Shown piece after piece: positions 15,567 through 27,003 of a stretch of DNA of 64,000 nucleotides (positions are counted from its first letter, which is position 1; each line of letters starts with the position of its first letter). The notes under the pieces were generated by a model, which did no database searches, had not been told where the DNA came from, and saw only the letters and a program-made list of their open reading frames with translations. Source of the DNA: a bacterium (GTDB taxonomy: Bacteria > SZUA-79 > Acidulodesulfobacterales > Acidulodesulfobacteraceae); contig JAKAOK010000005.1 of assembly GCA_021812245.1 (NCBI GenBank), positions 1 to 64,000 of the forward strand. Direction: 5' to 3'. A program made the position numbers and the translations under genes.

Positions 15567-16751
15567 TTATTTTTTATTTCTTTTCATAACTTCTTCGTAG
15601 AGAGGGGACATCTCCCTCAATTTTTTAACTACGGCCGGAAGTTCTTTGACAAAATATTCCGCATCGTCGAGCGAGTTGTCTTCGCCGAGCGATATCAGCA
15701 GCGAACCCTGCGCAAGCGCCGGGTCAACTCCTATCGCGTTTAATACGTGAGACGACTTTAATATTTTAGACGTGCAGGCAGAGCCGCTTGCAACCATAAT
15801 TCCAATATTGTTAAGCCACATAAGCATAGACTCCCCCTCGATGTATTTTACGACAAAGTTAAGATTGTTGGGGAGCCTCTTTTCAGGATGTCCGTTTAAA
15901 TAAACCTCGTCGAGACCGCCAAGCACTCCGTCGGTAATCGCTTTTTGAATAGGCAGAAGATGCGCCGTCCTGTCTTTCAATTCTTTTTTGGCAAGTTCGC
16001 AGGCAACACCCGCTCCGGCTATCGCCGGAATGTTTTCCGTCCCGGCCCTTCTTCCGAACTCCTGAATACCGCCGTCGATAAGGGGCATTATGCGTATCCC
16101 TTTTTTAAGGTAAAAAAGCCCTACGCCTTTTGGGCCGTAAAACCTGTGCGGAGCGGCGGAAAGCATATCGACCCCAAGTTCTTTGACGTCCGTTTCTATG
16201 AAGCCGCAGGACGTGTTTGCATCCGTATGCATATAAGCCGCCGAATTTTCATGGACGATTTTTGAAATTTCTTTAATATCCTGAATAGTGCCGATTTCGT
16301 TTGAAGCCTGAGTAATGCTGGCGAGTATGGTATCTTTTCTTAAAGCGTTTTTAACGTCCTGCGGGTCAACCGAACCGTATTTATCGACGGGAACCTCGCT
16401 GAATTCAAAACCCAGTTTCGCTAAAGATTTAACGGAATTTAAAACGCTGAAATGCTCTATTTTAGAAACGATGATATGCCTGCCTTTGTCCATTCTCGCA
16501 AAAGCCGTTCCTTTTATCGCAATGTTGTTTGCTTCCGAACCGCTTCCCGTAAATATAACTTCCGTGCTCGCCGCATTTAAAAGCTCAGCCGCCCGAAGTC
16601 TGGCTTTGTCCAAGGCTTCCCTCGGTTCGTCGCCGAGCGTATGAATGCTTTGAGGATTTCCGTATTCCGCTATAAAATAAGGCTCCATGGCGTCTTTTAC
16701 TTCCCGCCTCATCTTCGTCGCCGCAAAGTGGTCGAAATTAATTATTTTCAA
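15567..16751 (-). CDS. Cysteine desulfurase (NifS/IscS family)
   Basis: 'NFDHFAATKM', 'FTGSGSEANNIAIKG', 'SAAPHRFYGPKGVG', 'SGSACTS'. Confidence 0.95.
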   Translation of the reverse strand: MKIINFDHFAATKMRREVKDAMEPYFIAEYGNPQSIHTLGDEPREALDKARLRAAELLNAASTEVIFTGSGSEANNIAIKGTAFARMDKGRHIIVSKIEHFSVLNSVKSLAKLGFEFSEVPVDKYGSVDPQDVKNALRKDTILASITQASNEIGTIQDIKEISKIVHENSAAYMHTDANTSCGFIETDVKELGVDMLSAAPHRFYGPKGVGLFYLKKGIRIMPLIDGGIQEFGRRAGTENIPAIAGAGVACELAKKELKDRTAHLLPIQKAITDGVLGGLDEVYLNGHPEKRLPNNLNFVVKYIEGESMLMWLNNIGIMVASGSACTSKILKSSHVLNAIGVDPALAQGSLLISLGEDNSLDDAEYFVKELPAVVKKLREMSPLYEEVMKRNKK

Positions 16752-16896: not shown

Positions 16897-17121
16897 TTAT
16901 TTTTTCACGTAAACTATGTATTCGGGCAGATTTATTTCATAAGACATAAATTCATGTCCGGTTTTTTTGCAGTAGCTTTTTAAATCTTCTACGATGCCCT
17001 CGTCAGATGCCGTTACTTTTAATACCGAGCCGTCCGGAATTTTTTTAAATTCTTCCGCAACTTCCATTATCGGCATAGGACAAGATAATCCAAAAGTATC
17101 GAGTTCGTAATCGTAATTCAT
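16897..17121 (-). CDS. tusA: TusA/SirA-family sulfurtransferase
   Basis: 'DTFGLSCPMPIMEVAEEFKKIPDGSVLKVTASDEGIVEDLKSYCKKTGHE'. Confidence 0.93.
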   Translation of the reverse strand: MNYDYELDTFGLSCPMPIMEVAEEFKKIPDGSVLKVTASDEGIVEDLKSYCKKTGHEFMSYEINLPEYIVYVKK

Positions 17122-17200: not shown

Positions 17201-17647
17201 TTAAGCATGCTCCAGCAAATCATGTTCGTCTTCGTCGTGTTCCGGTGTTTCCACCCTGCCTATGGGACCTTTGCCCGCTTTTCTCGCCCTGTAATCTTCA
17301 ATGGCAAGATGAAGGGCGTCGGCGGCAAGGTTAGAACAGTGCATCTTTACCGGAGGCAGTCCGTCTAAAGCCTCGGCGACCACCCCGTTAGAAACTTTTT
17401 CCGCTTCTTCGAGGGTCTTCCCTTTGACGAGTTCGGTTACCATGGAGCTTGTGGCTATAGCGGCGCCGCAGCCGAATGTTTTAAACTTTACGTCTTCGAT
17501 TTTATCGTCTTTAACTTTGATATATATTTTCATTATATCGCCGCAGGTCGGGTTTCCTAGTTCTCCTACCCCGTCCGCGTTTTCTATCTCACCCACATTC
17601 CTTGGATGCTGAAAGTGGTCCATTACTTTTTCCGAATATACCGGCAT
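17201..17647 (-). CDS. iscU: Fe-S cluster scaffold protein IscU/NifU-like
   Basis: 'MDHFQHPRNVGEIENADGVGELGNPTCGDIM', 'KFKTFGCGAAIATSSM', 'KMHCSNLAADAL'. Confidence 0.95.
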   Translation of the reverse strand: MPVYSEKVMDHFQHPRNVGEIENADGVGELGNPTCGDIMKIYIKVKDDKIEDVKFKTFGCGAAIATSSMVTELVKGKTLEEAEKVSNGVVAEALDGLPPVKMHCSNLAADALHLAIEDYRARKAGKGPIGRVETPEHDEDEHDLLEHA

Positions 17648-19490: not shown

Positions 19491-20222
19491 TTAAAATAAT
19501 GTGGTTGGCATTGTTACTTTAACAGGTCGCCCTTTTCCCCGTTTTTCTATTCTTCTTCCGATTATCTGCTCTACAGAATCAGTAAAATAGCTGTTTCCCG
19601 TAAGCTGGCCTCGATTTAAAACTCCTCTCAGAAAATCTAATTCGCCCGATGGTATATTTTCCTGAAGGAACTTTGAGTATTTTTCGCGCCTTATTTCTTC
19701 CTTTTCGCTCAAACCAAGAAACATTGGATCTAAATCTATATCCATATCCCTGTCGGACTGCTCTTTTACTTTGTCGCTGCTCATTCTTGTAATATAACTT
19801 GACCACCTATAATCCGACGGTTTTTCTACAATATTTGCCCGAACTGGATTTAATTCGATATAACGGCAACAGGCTAATAAATATTGGTCTCTTTGCACAG
19901 GGCTTGATTTATACCTGCTTTCCCACAATGTTCCGCTTCTGCCTTCTAATATATTAAAATAACGGGTGGTTCGTCCGGCAAGTGTTTTCATAAATACCCA
20001 CAGATTTGAAACTTCATCTCCGGGCTGTAGAAGTAAATGAATATGATTAGTCATAAGGCAATAAGCAAATACTTTTATTTCAAATTTAATTTTTAATTCC
20101 TGTATATTTTTAAGATAATTATTAAAATCTTCGTCTTGCGCAAATATTACCTGCCTGTTATGTCCTCGTTGAACTATGTGGTGAGGGCAATTTGGCAGCA
20201 GGATTCTTTTAGTTCTCGGCAT
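19491..20222 (-). mobile_element. REP-associated tyrosine transposase (RAYT; Y1/IS200-like HUH)
   Basis: 'MPRTKRILLPNCPHHIVQRGHNRQVIF', 'YCLMTNHIHLLLQP' (HUH), 'GRSGTLWESRYKSSPVQ', 'CCRYIELNPVRANIV', 'DYRWSSY'. Confidence 0.93.
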
Positions 20223-21697: not shown

Positions 21698-21865
21698 ATA
21701 AAAATAATCAAGTTGACGCAACGGAAAATTCTAAAAATAAAAATAAGGGAAAGGGAATAAAATACGGCAAACGCAGGGCGGGAGTGGGGAAATAAATAAA
21801 TCTGTCCCCTTTATTTCCCTCCCCTTTATTTCCCTCCCCTTTATTTCCCTCCCCTTTATTTCCTT
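21698..21865 (-). repeat. Cassette-type 3' repeat plus tandem (cccctttatttccct)n expansion
   Basis: aataatcaagttgacgcaacgg..acggcaaacgcagggcgggagtggggaaataaataaatctgtcccctttatttccctcccctttatttccctcccctttatttccctccccttt. Confidence 0.85.
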
Positions 21866-21877
21866 TATTAAATAATC

Positions 21878-22074
21878 AAGTTAACATAATGGAATTTTAT
21901 GGCGGCGGGGAATAAAAACCTGCTGCGCAGATTCAAGCGGGAGTGGGGAAATAAATAAATCTGTCCCCTTTATTTTAAGTTAACATAATGGAATTTTATG
22001 GCGGCGGGGAATAAAAACCTGCTGCGCAGATTCAAGCGGGAGTGGGGAAATAAATAAATCTGTCCCCTTTATTT
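21878..22074. repeat. Perfect ~99-bp tandem duplication of the cassette repeat
   Basis: 21878-21975 and 21977-22074 read identically (aagttaacataatgg...aaataaatctgtcccctttattt). Confidence 0.92.
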
Positions 22075-22144
22075 CCCTCCCCTTTATTTCCTTTATTAGT
22101 CCCCTTTATTTAATAACATAAATTTTAAAGATATGAAAAACAGA

Positions 22145-22237
22145 AAATAAATCAAGTTGACATAACGGCAAATTATGAGAAAATACGGCAAACGCAGGTG
22201 GGAGTAAGGAAATAAATAAATCTGTCCCCTTTATTAA
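22145..22237 (-). repeat. Cassette-type 3' repeat (right-most copy)
   Basis: aaatcaagttgacataacggcaaattatgagaaaatacggcaaacgcaggtgggagtaaggaaataaataaatctgtccccttt. Confidence 0.85.
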
Positions 22238-22245
22238 GAAAGAAA

Positions 22246-22276
22246 AAAGCGGAAAGGCTGGAAAGCCTTTCCGCTT
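22246..22276 (-). terminator. Strong bidirectional intrinsic terminator of the 22317-23714 gene
   Basis: GCGGAAAGGCT-GGAA-AGCCTTTCCGC perfect hairpin with T-runs on both sides. Confidence 0.85.
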
Positions 22277-22316
22277 TAGTTTTTTTAGTTTTTATTATAA
22301 TACTGCGTTAGCAGGA

Positions 22317-23714
22317 TTAGAACGCGAAGTCAAGACCTGTGCCGAGCAAATTGGCTTCTGTTTTATTTGTAATTGTATAACCAAGATAAAGATGCGCATT
22401 ATAGGCTAAATTAATAGTGGCCTGAAGGGCAAGGGCGTCTTTTATGCCTTCGTCACAAACACCAGTCGGTTCATTGCTGTAAGCACTGCCGTATAAACCA
22501 GAATTTGGACAAGCAGATGTTCCATTGACGGATTCTTGCAAGTTTTTATGTGTCCAAGAATACGTTGCATAATCAGCCGAAAGCATAATTCCATTATTCA
22601 TTATAGGTAATATATAACGCCCATAAACTTCAAAAGTGCTATATCCATTGCTTGAATTAGTATTGCCGACAACGCTGCCGTTTAAATAAATATTGGTTGA
22701 TGCTAACGACGGATTCCCATACGGATGATTGTCGCTCTGGACCATATAGGTCAAGCCAAGCTCGTAAACGTCGTTTGCAAGGTCAACATCGACGCCGTTA
22801 ATCGTAACGCGGTTGGTCCACGACGCCGCTCCACCTATAGGTTCTGCAACGGTCGCGCCGTAGTAACCCAATTCTAACTGACCCATCGGAATCGGTGCAT
22901 ATTCTTTTAACTGGTAGGAATATTCCATTGCATTTGAAACTTGAGAGTTAAGAGGTGCAGCCTCTCCTACAGTGGTGCCTGCATCATTCGTAACCGATAC
23001 TTTATACCATAAATGATAACCCGGCGTTCCGTAAAGAGCAAAACCGGCGTTTCTCGCATGGATCAAAGCGCCTTTTTCGCCGTCTACGCCGACGTTCAAA
23101 TACTGTCCGTTTGCTACTGGACCCGAAGGAAGATAGAAGGGTGCCTGCCTGTAGAAATACGGGCTTGCGGTTGTTACCTGACCTAATTTTAAGTTAAACA
23201 GATGAGGAGCTACTCCTAATCCGCTGCCAAGACCGTTGATTGATGCGAATATCTGTTTGCCGGTAAGACTTTGGCCTGCGTTAAATTTGTAATGCACATA
23301 GAAAGAAATTGAATCTGCAAGCGGGGTGTAAAGCTTAAATGCGCCCGCATCGACGATATCGGCAGATGCTCCAAACGCATCTGTTGATGCGATTACATTT
23401 TCATTAGTCGTGTGTTGATAGCTGATAATCGGCTCCACCATTACCGGAATCGGCCATGGGTTCGGAAGGCTTAAGCCTTCGGTAATCTGCGTTGCGTCCG
23501 CAGGGGTTCCGTTTGTGCCCGGAAGCCTGAAGCCGTTTCTCCAGAACGCTCTTCCGAACGGGTTAAGGTTTGGGAAAACCGTGTGGCAAACTGCGCATGA
23601 AAAATGATACTTTTGTGCAAAGCTCGGGATTGCGTTTGCTTTTTTCGGCACTAATGCGAACGAAAGCGCCAAAACAAACAAGGCAACCATAGTTACCGCT
23701 AATTTTCTTTTCAT
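22317..23714 (-). CDS. Monohaem cytochrome fused to predicted outer-membrane beta-barrel (Cyc2-like porin-cytochrome superfamily)
   Basis: Signal peptide ending ANA, then mature 'IPSFAQKYHFSCAVCHTVFPNLNPFGRAFWRNGF'; only one CxxCH; ~390 aa of alternating polar/hydrophobic strands ending in ...LDFAF (C-terminal Phe). Confidence 0.75.
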   Translation of the reverse strand: MKRKLAVTMVALFVLALSFALVPKKANAIPSFAQKYHFSCAVCHTVFPNLNPFGRAFWRNGFRLPGTNGTPADATQITEGLSLPNPWPIPVMVEPIISYQHTTNENVIASTDAFGASADIVDAGAFKLYTPLADSISFYVHYKFNAGQSLTGKQIFASINGLGSGLGVAPHLFNLKLGQVTTASPYFYRQAPFYLPSGPVANGQYLNVGVDGEKGALIHARNAGFALYGTPGYHLWYKVSVTNDAGTTVGEAAPLNSQVSNAMEYSYQLKEYAPIPMGQLELGYYGATVAEPIGGAASWTNRVTINGVDVDLANDVYELGLTYMVQSDNHPYGNPSLASTNIYLNGSVVGNTNSSNGYSTFEVYGRYILPIMNNGIMLSADYATYSWTHKNLQESVNGTSACPNSGLYGSAYSNEPTGVCDEGIKDALALQATINLAYNAHLYLGYTITNKTEANLLGTGLDFAF

Positions 23715-24005
23715 AACTTTCCTCTCTATTAAAGTTAAAGTTAAAGTTAAAAATTAAATTAAATTAAATTTAGAACTTGATTTTCTACTGCAATTTTTTA
23801 ATCTTTCTCAGTCTTTCTCCTCCGCCACCTCCTTAAAAGATTTTATATATAGATATTTATATATCTAAAATTACCGTTTGTCAAACTTTTTGTTTGAACC
23901 GATAATCATAATATATATCGTCCGCCTAAGCTAATACTTTAACATTGATTTAATTATAATACCTATATTTTATATGTCAAGACCTTTTTTGACTTTTTTT
24001 ACCCT

Positions 24006-24395
24006 TTATTTTAACGAGTCAAGATAAGACGCAAGCTCGAAAAGTTCTTTTTTAGAAAGCATTTTGTGGTCGGGCATAATAGCCATATAAGACTTTCCGT
24101 CTATTTTTACGGTAGAGCCGGGTTTAAAATTCTTGGACGGCGTAGCTATCTGAACTTCAAGCCATTTAATAGAATGTTTTAATGCGGCTTCTTTTGAAAG
24201 ATTCGGCCCTACGCTTCCGCCTTTTTTACCTATTTTATGGCAGGCAAAACAGTCTATACCTTTTTTGTTGGAATGGATAAGCTGTTTGCCGAGCTGGGCA
24301 GCGGATAACTTGACGGGGGCGTTAAGAGCATGAACCGCTATGTAGCCGAGAACAATAACGATAACTATAAATATTACGGTTAGACCTTTTTTCAT
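24006..24395 (-). CDS. Small periplasmic monohaem cytochrome c
   Basis: Signal anchor, CFACH haem site, 'SVGPNLS', 'AIMPDHKMLSKKELFELASYLDSL' with distal Met. Confidence 0.9.
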   Translation of the reverse strand: MKKGLTVIFIVIVIVLGYIAVHALNAPVKLSAAQLGKQLIHSNKKGIDCFACHKIGKKGGSVGPNLSKEAALKHSIKWLEVQIATPSKNFKPGSTVKIDGKSYMAIMPDHKMLSKKELFELASYLDSLK

Positions 24396-24473: not shown

Positions 24474-24992
24474 TTAATAATCGAATTTCATTAAAGCGTT
24501 TACCGTATGAGGTTTGAGTTTGTCCGCCCCGTTTAGAAACGAAAGCTCCGCGAGAAACGCCGTATCTACGACTTCCGCACCGAAACTTTCGACCAGTCCT
24601 AGCGTCGCGAGAGCCGTTCCTCCGGTCGCAAGGACGTCGTCTGCGATAATAACCCTGTCGCCCGCCTTTAACGCATCTTTATGAATTTCCAGCGTTGCGC
24701 TTCCGTATTCGAGGTCGTAGCTTAAAGAGGAACATTCGTAAGGAAGCTTGCCGGGTTTTCTGACCATTATGACGCCTGCGCCGAGCCTGTATGCAACCGG
24801 AGCGCCGACGACGAAGCCTCTTGCTTCTATGCAGACGACGTAATCGATTTTTTTGGAACTATAAGAATCCGTCAACGAATCTACTGCATAGGCAAACGCC
24901 TTTGCATCTGCAAGAAGCGGCGTAATATCTTTAAAGTTAATTCCTTTTTTGGGGAAATCGGGGATTTCCCTGATAAATTGTTTTAAGTCCAT
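24474..24992 (-). CDS. apt: Adenine phosphoribosyltransferase
   Basis: 'IREIPDFPKKGINFKDITPLL', 'VCIEARGFVVGAPVAYRLGAG', 'VIIADDVLATGGTA'. Confidence 0.95.
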   Translation of the reverse strand: MDLKQFIREIPDFPKKGINFKDITPLLADAKAFAYAVDSLTDSYSSKKIDYVVCIEARGFVVGAPVAYRLGAGVIMVRKPGKLPYECSSLSYDLEYGSATLEIHKDALKAGDRVIIADDVLATGGTALATLGLVESFGAEVVDTAFLAELSFLNGADKLKPHTVNALMKFDY

Positions 24993-25113: not shown

Positions 25114-27003
25114 TCAATACATCCTGTAATTGCCGAAGCGACGTTCGGCGGCGGAAGCGTTAAAATCTTTCATCAGATACAGATAATACGTTCTTACCGG
25201 TTTAAATTTAACGTAAATATCGAGCCTGCCTATTTTTTTTACCGATTTAAAAAACGGCGCATATTTTTGGACGGGATTCAGCATATATTTGTTATCCATA
25301 ACAAACAGGGCATTTTCTCCGTTTATTTTGTTCAGGTTCTGCCGGAGGTCGTACTGGTTTAAAAAACCGGATATATTATAAATATTTACGGCAGGCTTGT
25401 ATCCGCCGTAATAGACGAGTTCGTCGGCAATGGCATAGTGGTGCGTAAGGATAAAGAGCGGACGGTAAGCCGCCTTATAGCCTTTATAAACGATTCCTAT
25501 ATACTTTGCGCCGTGCCGCCAACCGAAAAGGTCGTTCGTTATGTCGGCGGTGGAAGGTTTGCCCGGAATATGCGGGATGAGCGAAAACACCCCGCCCTTT
25601 CTAAGCCGCTTTTCTTTGTCGATATAACGTATTATTTTACCTACCGGTATGGAATTATAATAAATCTGGTTATATACGACAAGGGACAAAAAGAAACCGG
25701 AAAAGAGGGCGAAATAGACGTAATATTTGAGGAAAAAGAAAAAGGGGACAGATTTATTTATTCCCAAGTTGCTGCTTGACTTTGCCGAACTGTTCGTTTG
25801 AGAATAAAAAATATCTGTCCCCTTTTTCTTTTCTTGTTTCCGCGTAAACAGGTCGGCGGAATAACCCATAACTGGAAATACGGCGAGATAACCTATGTCC
25901 GGCCAGTGGACGAGAATTCTGTGGGAATAGCCGTTTATAACGAAAAATAATAGAATAGGAATAGACAAACAGACGGAAAACAGCAAAGATTCACGGACGC
26001 CGCCGGTGGAAAAGGGGACGGATTTTAAATCTGTCCCCTTTTCTTCTTTGTCGAACCGCCCCGTCGGCCGAAGGCCGACACCCCTCCTTTTAAGTAGGGG
26101 AGCTATATAGAAAAAAACTCCTATTAAAAATATATATATAAACGGCGTAATAACCAGAACCTGTCCGAACCAGCCGGCGGCCAAAAGGGGAAAACCCGGC
26201 TTGGGGTGCGAAAAACCGTGCGAAAGCTGAAACTTAAACGATATAAAATTATGCGTAAAATTCCAGTATATTACCGGCGAAAAAACAAGAAGCGCTACGG
26301 CAAGAGCCATATAAGGATAAAATGTTTTTAAAAAACGTCTGTTTCGTCCGGAAACAAGCAGATACAGAAGAACGGCGGGCGGGATGAGCGCGGCGGTGTA
26401 TTTGCTTAAAAACGCAAAGCCGAGGGAGATACCGGCGAGGAGCCAGTAAGAAGAAAAAAAAGAAAAAAAGGGGACAGATTTATTTTTTGCTTTGCAAAAA
26501 AAAAGATCTGTCCCCTTTTTTTCTTTCATCGTCTTATTCCCCTCTGCCGCTTTATAAAAAAATATAAAAAAACAGAGAGTAAAAAACAACAGGGGGGCAT
26601 CGGGAAGCGCCATAACGGAAAGAATCATTCCAAAAATAACGGCGGACAGAAAAAATAAAAACGAGAAAAAAGCCGCCCGTTTGTTTTTAAATAAAATATA
26701 AGAAAGGTAATATACTAAAAATCCGTCTAAGAAAGAAAAGATAACTGCGCCGAGCCTGACCGAAAGCTGGCTTTTGCCGAAAATACCGTCAAAAACGTAT
26801 ATAATCCAGCCGATAAGAGGGGCGTCGTCGAGATAGCCTAAAGACGGTTTCAACGACCATACATAATAATGCGCTTCGTCGTTGCCGAGGTTAAGAGTGG
26901 AAGCAAGATGAATATGGATGATAAGCGCAACCAGAGAAATGAGAATTAAATAAATCTCATATTGAAATTTACCGATATACAAACTCAATTTTTGCCTGCT
27001 CAA
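25114..27003 (-). CDS. GT39/ArnT-like membrane glycosyltransferase with four in-frame repeat insertions
   Basis: 'LGNDEAHYYVWSLKPSLGYLDDAPLIGWIIY', PMT-type TM pattern; interrupted by KKGTD..KSVPFF and RRGVGLRPTG peptides. Confidence 0.88.
   Translation of the reverse strand: MSRQKLSLYIGKFQYEIYLILISLVALIIHIHLASTLNLGNDEAHYYVWSLKPSLGYLDDAPLIGWIIYVFDGIFGKSQLSVRLGAVIFSFLDGFLVYYLSYILFKNKRAAFFSFLFFLSAVIFGMILSVMALPDAPLLFFTLCFFIFFYKAAEGNKTMKEKKGTDLFFCKAKNKSVPFFSFFSSYWLLAGISLGFAFLSKYTAALIPPAVLLYLLVSGRNRRFLKTFYPYMALAVALLVFSPVIYWNFTHNFISFKFQLSHGFSHPKPGFPLLAAGWFGQVLVITPFIYIFLIGVFFYIAPLLKRRGVGLRPTGRFDKEEKGTDLKSVPFSTGGVRESLLFSVCLSIPILLFFVINGYSHRILVHWPDIGYLAVFPVMGYSADLFTRKQEKKKGTDIFYSQTNSSAKSSSNLGINKSVPFFFFLKYYVYFALFSGFFLSLVVYNQIYYNSIPVGKIIRYIDKEKRLRKGGVFSLIPHIPGKPSTADITNDLFGWRHGAKYIGIVYKGYKAAYRPLFILTHHYAIADELVYYGGYKPAVNIYNISGFLNQYDLRQNLNKINGENALFVMDNKYMLNPVQKYAPFFKSVKKIGRLDIYVKFKPVRTYYLYLMKDFNASAAERRFGNYRMY
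25740..25827. repeat. Family B element inside GT39 gene (long loop)
   Basis: aaaaggggacagattta...atatctgtcccctttt. Confidence 0.9.
26010..26042. repeat. Family B element inside GT39 gene
   Basis: aaaaggggacggattttaaatctgtcccctttt. Confidence 0.92.
26054..26103. repeat. Family D element inside GT39 gene
   Basis: aaccgccccgtcggccgaaggccgacacccctccttttaagtaggggagc. Confidence 0.8.
26464..26522. repeat. Family B element inside GT39 gene
   Basis: aaaaaggggacagatttatttttt..aaaaagatctgtcccctttt. Confidence 0.9.

Follow-up and report, generated by a model that had tools for sequence, protein, structure and literature searches.

A Cyc2-like monohaem porin-cytochrome gene conserved in Candidatus Acidulodesulfobacterales, a candidate conduit between cytochrome c and extracellular iron

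The window analysed here is a stretch of 64,000 nucleotides on contig C25; the assembly to which it belongs amounts to 1.78 Mb and is 87% complete. The window carries a gene for a protein that is probably an outer-membrane monohaem porin-cytochrome, and probably a highly expressed one. Our main reading, to which we give a probability of about 0.55, is that this protein is a reversible or outward conduit for electrons between cytochrome c and dissolved extracellular iron. The host genome belongs to Candidatus Acidulodesulfobacterales, acidophilic and uncultured sulfate reducers of acid mine drainage, since the named orthologs come from mine-drainage MAGs, among them Candidatus Acididesulfobacter diazotrophicus AP1 (L052), whose ortholog is 66% identical.

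The gene and its product

The gene and the parts of its product are the following:

22317..23714, minus strand: Cyc2-like monohaem porin-cytochrome gene, 465 aa, ATG start (ORF, relatives, purifying selection, barrel model)
23631..23714, minus strand: signal peptide, residues 1-28 (MKRKL...KKANA), likely Sec, cleaved between ANA and IP (read by eye; hydrophobic core kept in 23 relatives)
23520..23630, minus strand: haem c domain, residues 29-65, IPSFAQKYHFSCAVCHTVFPNLNPFGRAFWRNGFRLP (near-invariance; homology to the Cyc2 haem domain)
23583-23597, minus strand: CxxCH, residues 40-44 (sequence)
22320..23441, minus strand: beta-barrel, residues 92-465, 16 predicted strands, C-terminal Phe (AlphaFold model and Foldseek)

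The N-terminus reads MKRKLAVTMVALFVLALSFALVPKKANA before the putative cleavage site and IPSFAQKYHFSCAVCHTVFPNLNPFGRAFWRNGF after it, and the C-terminus reads GTGLDFAF. An earlier note on this DNA had described a signal peptide, a sole CxxCH at the mature N-terminus and a barrel-like remainder ending in Phe, and these features were borne out: the signal peptide is readable by eye (KKANA/IPSF); the one CxxCH lies in IPSFAQKYHFSCAVCHTVFPNLNPFGRAFWRNGF, within a near-invariant domain, where we infer the attachment of a haem; and the remainder is modelled with 16 strands, matches 16-strand porins and closes with DFAF. The haem site is followed by PxL about four residues past CxxCH (CAVCHTVFPNL), as in Cyc2, and the length of 465 aa exceeds the Cyc2 minimum of 365 aa. 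No Pfam or NCBIfam model matched the protein, and a sequence search of the PDB returned nothing credible, only a chance match around CxxCH.

The gene is real and is conserved under purifying selection. Across 23 relatives, residues 28-65 hardly vary, with 0-1 amino acid changes against 6-20 nucleotide changes over these 38 codons; the barrel evolves faster, with dN of about 0.2-0.3 against dS above 1. H37, H101, H171, and M377, candidate distal ligands, are invariant in these relatives. Two readings were discarded: a chance ORF, by the conservation and the dN/dS values, and a multihaem conduit, by the presence of a single CxxCH.

In the AlphaFold model (mean pLDDT 65, pTM 0.64), 16 long strands occupy residues 92-464, and long loops follow the fifth and the thirteenth. 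In the PDB, the best Foldseek matches were all 16-strand general porins (OmpF, OmpC, PhoE, PorB, and OmpU), OmpF being the top one (E 9.5e-12); we infer a location in the outer membrane. The earlier note had proposed to look for a 16-strand barrel with an N-terminal plug; the strands appeared in the model, but the haem domain (residues 21-89) was poorly modelled, with pLDDT below 50. A control model of a Cyc2-type protein from a Thiogranum MAG (L064; pLDDT 75) also had 16 strands, with long loops at the same two places, and again matched this class of porins in the PDB. Since strand count, loops and porin class coincide, the overall build predicted for the window protein is that of Cyc2.

Genomic context

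The genes and signals around the porin-cytochrome gene are the following:

24006..24395, minus strand: monohaem class I cytochrome c, 129 aa, with an N-terminal hydrophobic segment (Pfam PF00034, 2.1e-7; synteny)
24474..24992, minus strand: adenine phosphoribosyltransferase-like gene, syntenic anchor (sequence and synteny)
17201..17647, minus strand: IscU-like scaffold gene, syntenic neighbour (synteny)
16897..17121, minus strand: TusA/SirA-like gene, 74 aa, syntenic neighbour (synteny)
15567..16751, minus strand: IscS-like cysteine desulfurase gene, syntenic neighbour (synteny)
23953..23980, minus strand: consensus sigma-70-type promoter, TTGACA-16-TATAAT (12/12), about 238 nt before the start codon (sequence scan)
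22246..22277, minus strand: bidirectional intrinsic terminator-like hairpin, 14 pairs, just past the gene (sequence)

The gene for the 129-aa cytochrome c (cytochrome c129) lies directly upstream of the porin-cytochrome gene in the window, and it is kept as a neighbour in all 17 core-ortholog loci with enough sequence; it is adjacent in ten of them, and iscS, iscU, and tusA-like genes stand between the two in the other seven. Cytochrome c129 is likely the periplasmic electron partner of the porin-cytochrome. We do not regard the adenine phosphoribosyltransferase-like gene as belonging to the mechanism.

The 12/12 promoter match is found upstream of 11 of 20 core orthologs, including that of the window, and it appeared in 10 of 20,000 shuffles of the window leader. 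A ribosome-binding site, GAGAGAGGAAAGTT, stands beside the ATG. In the 5′ leader of about 240 nt (minus strand; region 23720-23850) there is also a conserved AAGGAGGTG, which lies a long way before the start and is not followed by a start codon of its own; it is possibly a ribosome standby site. An Rfam search around the gene gave nothing above the gathering threshold.

The repeat GGGGAAATAAATAAATCTGTCCCC occurs in five copies, at 21786-22229 and 25744-25767, when up to 3 mismatches are allowed; by chance no copy would be expected. Four copies separate the porin-cytochrome gene from an IS200-like (Y1_Tnp) transposase ORF (19491-20222). These copies are possibly REP/MITE elements mobilised by the transposase.

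Distribution and paralogs

Relatives of the porin-cytochrome were found in 28 of the 30 genomes of the host's family, its own included; the two genomes lacking one are 86% and 59% complete. Elsewhere in the family there are up to six matches per genome, some of which are fragments. A second copy in the host genome (C1:104445-105893, 55% identity) is surrounded by genes for tri- to heptahaem proteins; some 5 kb downstream of it, the contig carries Rieske and cytochrome b genes and, after these, ATP synthase subunit-like genes. Around this copy on C1 (L158:4225-14663 and L203:518-3667) there are multihaem lipoprotein-like cytochromes, before Rieske and cytochrome b; after these two lies an ORF of 499 aa that resembles a membrane protein, contains one CxxCH and matched neither Pfam nor NCBIfam, perhaps a novel counterpart of cytochrome c1.

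The c-type cytochromes are close to most of the paralog loci examined. Another paralog type adjoins cydAB and a DsbD-like gene (genomes G019 and G022); in G019 (L159:753-6842) a nitrous oxide reductase-like gene (nos_propeller, cupredoxin) was also observed near a 555-aa paralog, beside cydAB. A further paralog has an altered haem site, CAVCHINGYGGGASLNPFGRA, lacks PxL and is followed by a 112-aa cytochrome c (L161:6720-8120 and L163:1109-2509).

Relationship to Cyc2

The motif before the haem site of Cyc2 has been described as AxPxFAR[Q/K][T/Y], the arginine being defining (Keffer et al. 2021, PMC8406198). The window protein reads AIPSFAQKY and departs from this motif by Gln (residue 34) in place of Arg. 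The replacement, by Gln or Glu, is found in 31 of 31 sampled sequences of the window family, whose variants are FAQKY or FAEKY, with FSQKY in a few, against mostly FARQT or FARQV in the Cyc2-type proteins of the sample. At the sequence level the haem domain is nonetheless homologous to that of Cyc2, with an hhalign probability of 99.3% (E 1.7e-20 over 100 columns).

The reference sequences came from named plasmids (Caballeronia, Methylocystis, Paraburkholderia, and Ideonella) and from a genome scan. In addition, 28 of 41 genomes in the family of a Sideroxydans MAG supplied the cluster-1-type FARQTGMACSSCHYMKFPVLNGFGRAFKAAGY; we assign these to cluster 1 because the Gallionellaceae Cyc2 fall there (PMC8406198). 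Genome family f20 (Cyc2-type proteins L032 and L118) was considered as a source of Leptospirillum Cyt572 and dropped, for no cytochrome579 match was found in it. A plasmid search with a protein of the broad FARKY family, described next, gave no named member.

The caveat of the earlier note that a broader IPxFA..CxxCH family has similar features proved apt. The window family shows the features of this family, namely the KY haem motif and FPxLNxFG...FxxNG[FY], with Q at the position of R, and both barrel profiles and trees group the two. In barrel-only hhalign comparisons, the window family reached 96.6% (E 5.7e-10) against the FARKY set, 5.1% against the Cyc2-type set and 1.1% against the Gallionellaceae cluster-1-type set, whereas the last two sets matched each other at 99.9%. 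Subsamples of 12 rows gave 31-92% against FARKY and 0.4-2.5% against the Cyc2 sets, and reversed-sequence controls 0.2-0.5% (0.3-0.4% against FARKY). Since comparisons of single sequences presented no preference for FARKY over Cyc2 (p 0.39), the FARKY profile, being the more diverse one, may account for part of this difference, and the barrel argument is made from profiles, with the reversed-sequence and equal-row controls.

Two trees were built, one for the haem domain and one for the full-length protein, from a sample without A. ferrooxidans Cyc2 and Leptospirillum Cyt572. Both grouped the window family with FARKY, apart from the sampled Cyc2 clade (SH-aLRT 98 and 97). AU tests on the same sample did not reject a position inside Cyc2 (p 0.12, 0.29, and 0.36). 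On this sample, the phylogeny against clusters 1-3 proposed as a check in the earlier note gave a placement outside the sampled clade with nesting still compatible. The AU result, the latitude of the Keffer motif, which permits K and Y as in the window protein, and the sampling of the trees leave some room for a divergent true Cyc2, of cluster 3 or of an unsampled cluster, in which the arginine was merely lost. We consider this improbable, given the clade support, the consistent replacement of the arginine and a barrel profile at 0.4-5% against Cyc2 sets and 31-97% against FARKY sets.

The Cyc2 reading of the earlier note is then only partly supported: architecture, haem-domain homology and redox context agree with it, but the motif arginine and the barrel profile do not, and the trees place the family outside the sampled clade. 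The note had also held that placement in a non-Cyc2 clade lacking a redox association would refute it; at most half of this was observed, as a redox association is present. As judged from sequence, the protein would be a Cyc2-like variant that is not Cyc2 by the published motif, and we propose that its family is a separate FA[Q/E]KY lineage.

Iron is the likely substrate, a view that draws on the homology of about 100 residues and on the habitat. FARKY relatives occur in many unrelated families with no common partner, a CxxCH ORF lying within 2 kb in 10 of 22 FARKY loci (for Cyc2-type loci, in 26 of 47), and near the window gene there are the sulfur-transfer genes iscS, iscU, and tusA; such a pattern could fit a small-solute porin, a sensory or structural haem, or electron exchange with sulfur compounds or oxygen species in place of iron. 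The invariant haem domain, the constant pairing with cytochrome c and the location of paralogs among cytochromes and oxidases argue against such roles, which we regard as very unlikely.

Respiratory chain and direction of electron flow

In the host genome there are one bd oxidase and one cytochrome b, and no match to haem-copper oxidase subunit I was found in its assembly, from which, at 87% completeness, the gene could be missing. Across the family, a bd oxidase is present in 25 of 30 genomes and a cytochrome b also in 25 (18 of 19 among the good genomes), while a CcoN-like cbb3-type oxidase occurs in only three, with a CcoO-like neighbour in G019 and G022 (NCBIfam check done for G019). About ten genomes have a haem-copper protein of 760-766 aa, to which NCBIfam gave no name and which is probably a nitric oxide reductase. 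A conserved ORF of 141-152 aa in most family genomes (for example, G016:C1:644331-644621) matches the COX1 Pfam model only at positions of about 300-400.

In our main reading, a 16-strand barrel would span the outer membrane, and the haem domain at the mature N-terminus would plug it or sit inside it on the periplasmic side. The haem would exchange electrons with the neighbouring cytochrome c129, and the pore would admit dissolved iron to it, a working mode like that of Cyc2. The periplasmic cytochrome c pool would be tied to the cytochrome b/Rieske complex in a lineage where cytochrome c oxidase is mostly missing. The likeliest chain, reversible or outward, would run from quinol through cytochrome b/Rieske, cytochrome c and the porin-cytochrome to dissolved Fe(III) at low pH. 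This direction is favoured since cytochrome b/Rieske is present and cytochrome c oxidase mostly missing: flow from quinol through cytochrome b/Rieske and cytochrome c to Fe(III) is downhill, and Fe(II) electrons at low pH would have no visible downhill route to oxygen without a cytochrome c oxidase. There is also a precedent, as the Cyc2 of A. ferrooxidans has been proposed as a terminal Fe(III) reductase via bc1 and c cytochromes (PMC8790237, PMC7735108).

The opposite direction has been put forward for this order. According to Tan et al. (2019, PMC6776010), the abundance of Ca. Acidulodesulfobacterales in mine drainage correlates with ferrous iron; the top 20 transcripts include a cyt572-like gene, alongside iscS, nifU, and sirA; and Fe(II) oxidation was deduced from this gene by similarity, with Fe(III) respiration also listed as possible. 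That cyt572-like gene is probably of the window type, because the conserved block described here has iscS, nifU-type, and sirA-type genes. In an inward Fe(II) oxidase with cyt572, cyt579, and cyc1, as Tan et al. proposed, electrons would pass from Fe(II) to the porin haem, to cytochrome c and to oxygen or, uphill, to NAD. The haem-domain homology to Cyc2, the correlation and transcript rank just cited and the cbb3-type oxidase of a few genomes are consistent with it. However, the CcoN-like cytochrome c oxidase subunit I is restricted to those few genomes; the bd oxidase draws on quinol, which Fe(II), with a potential near +0.66 V at pH 2 (PMC7735108), reaches only via proton-motive force; the host genome gave no match to cytochrome579; and the family branches outside the Cyc2 clade as sampled. 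We take this inward oxidase to be a rather unlikely explanation. Fe(II) oxidation is no more plausible than outward flow to Fe(III), and the composition of the respiratory chain slightly favours the latter.

Significance

Cyc2-like matches serve as a marker gene for microbial iron oxidation. The family described here is a widespread relative with a strong promoter. Read loosely, it would pass for Cyc2 (single CxxCH, porin, more than 365 aa), but it does not have the defining arginine, falls outside the Cyc2 clade as sampled, and occurs in hosts mostly devoid of the oxidase needed for Fe(II) oxidation. If the flow is outward, marker-gene surveys of acid mine drainage would give an abundant group the wrong direction, and a single haem would suffice for extracellular Fe(III) respiration at low pH. 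The fuller proposal is a tentative one, which we hold possible at less than even odds. In it, these single-haem porin-cytochromes form a lineage of their own, present almost throughout an order of acidophilic sulfate reducers, and serve chiefly to reduce Fe(III) outside the cell with electrons from cytochrome b/Rieske and a dedicated cytochrome c129. If true, they would do with one haem what the Mtr-type conduits do with many, which the solubility of Fe(III) at low pH would make feasible.

Comparison with known systems

The window protein shares with Cyc2 of Mariprofundus ferrooxydans PV-1 and Acidithiobacillus ferrooxidans (PMC8406198) the signal peptide, a single N-terminal CxxCH with PxL after it, a homologous haem domain and a 16-strand porin of more than 365 aa with one haem, the porin being predicted here. 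On the other hand, the window family has Gln or Glu for the motif arginine; its barrel sequence is not detectably related to the Cyc2 sets, and it stands outside the sampled Cyc2 clade; the partner is a 129-aa monohaem cytochrome in place of Cyc1/rusticyanin; and the hosts are sulfate-reducing acidophiles mostly lacking cytochrome c oxidase.

With the broad IPxFARKY...CxxCH...FPxLNxFG family of single-haem barrels, the window family shares the KY motif, FxxNGF/Y, the barrel profile and the tree grouping, but it has Q for R, FGR for FGE/FGD and a long branch of its own.

The cyt572-like gene, as presented by Tan et al. (PMC6776010), comes from the same order, and AP1, one of their genomes, carries an ortholog of the window gene. 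The neighbours iscS, nifU, and sirA, highly transcribed there, are shared as well, the identity of the two genes being deduced from them; theirs was assigned to Fe(II) oxidation by similarity, whereas we favour a reversible or outward conduit.
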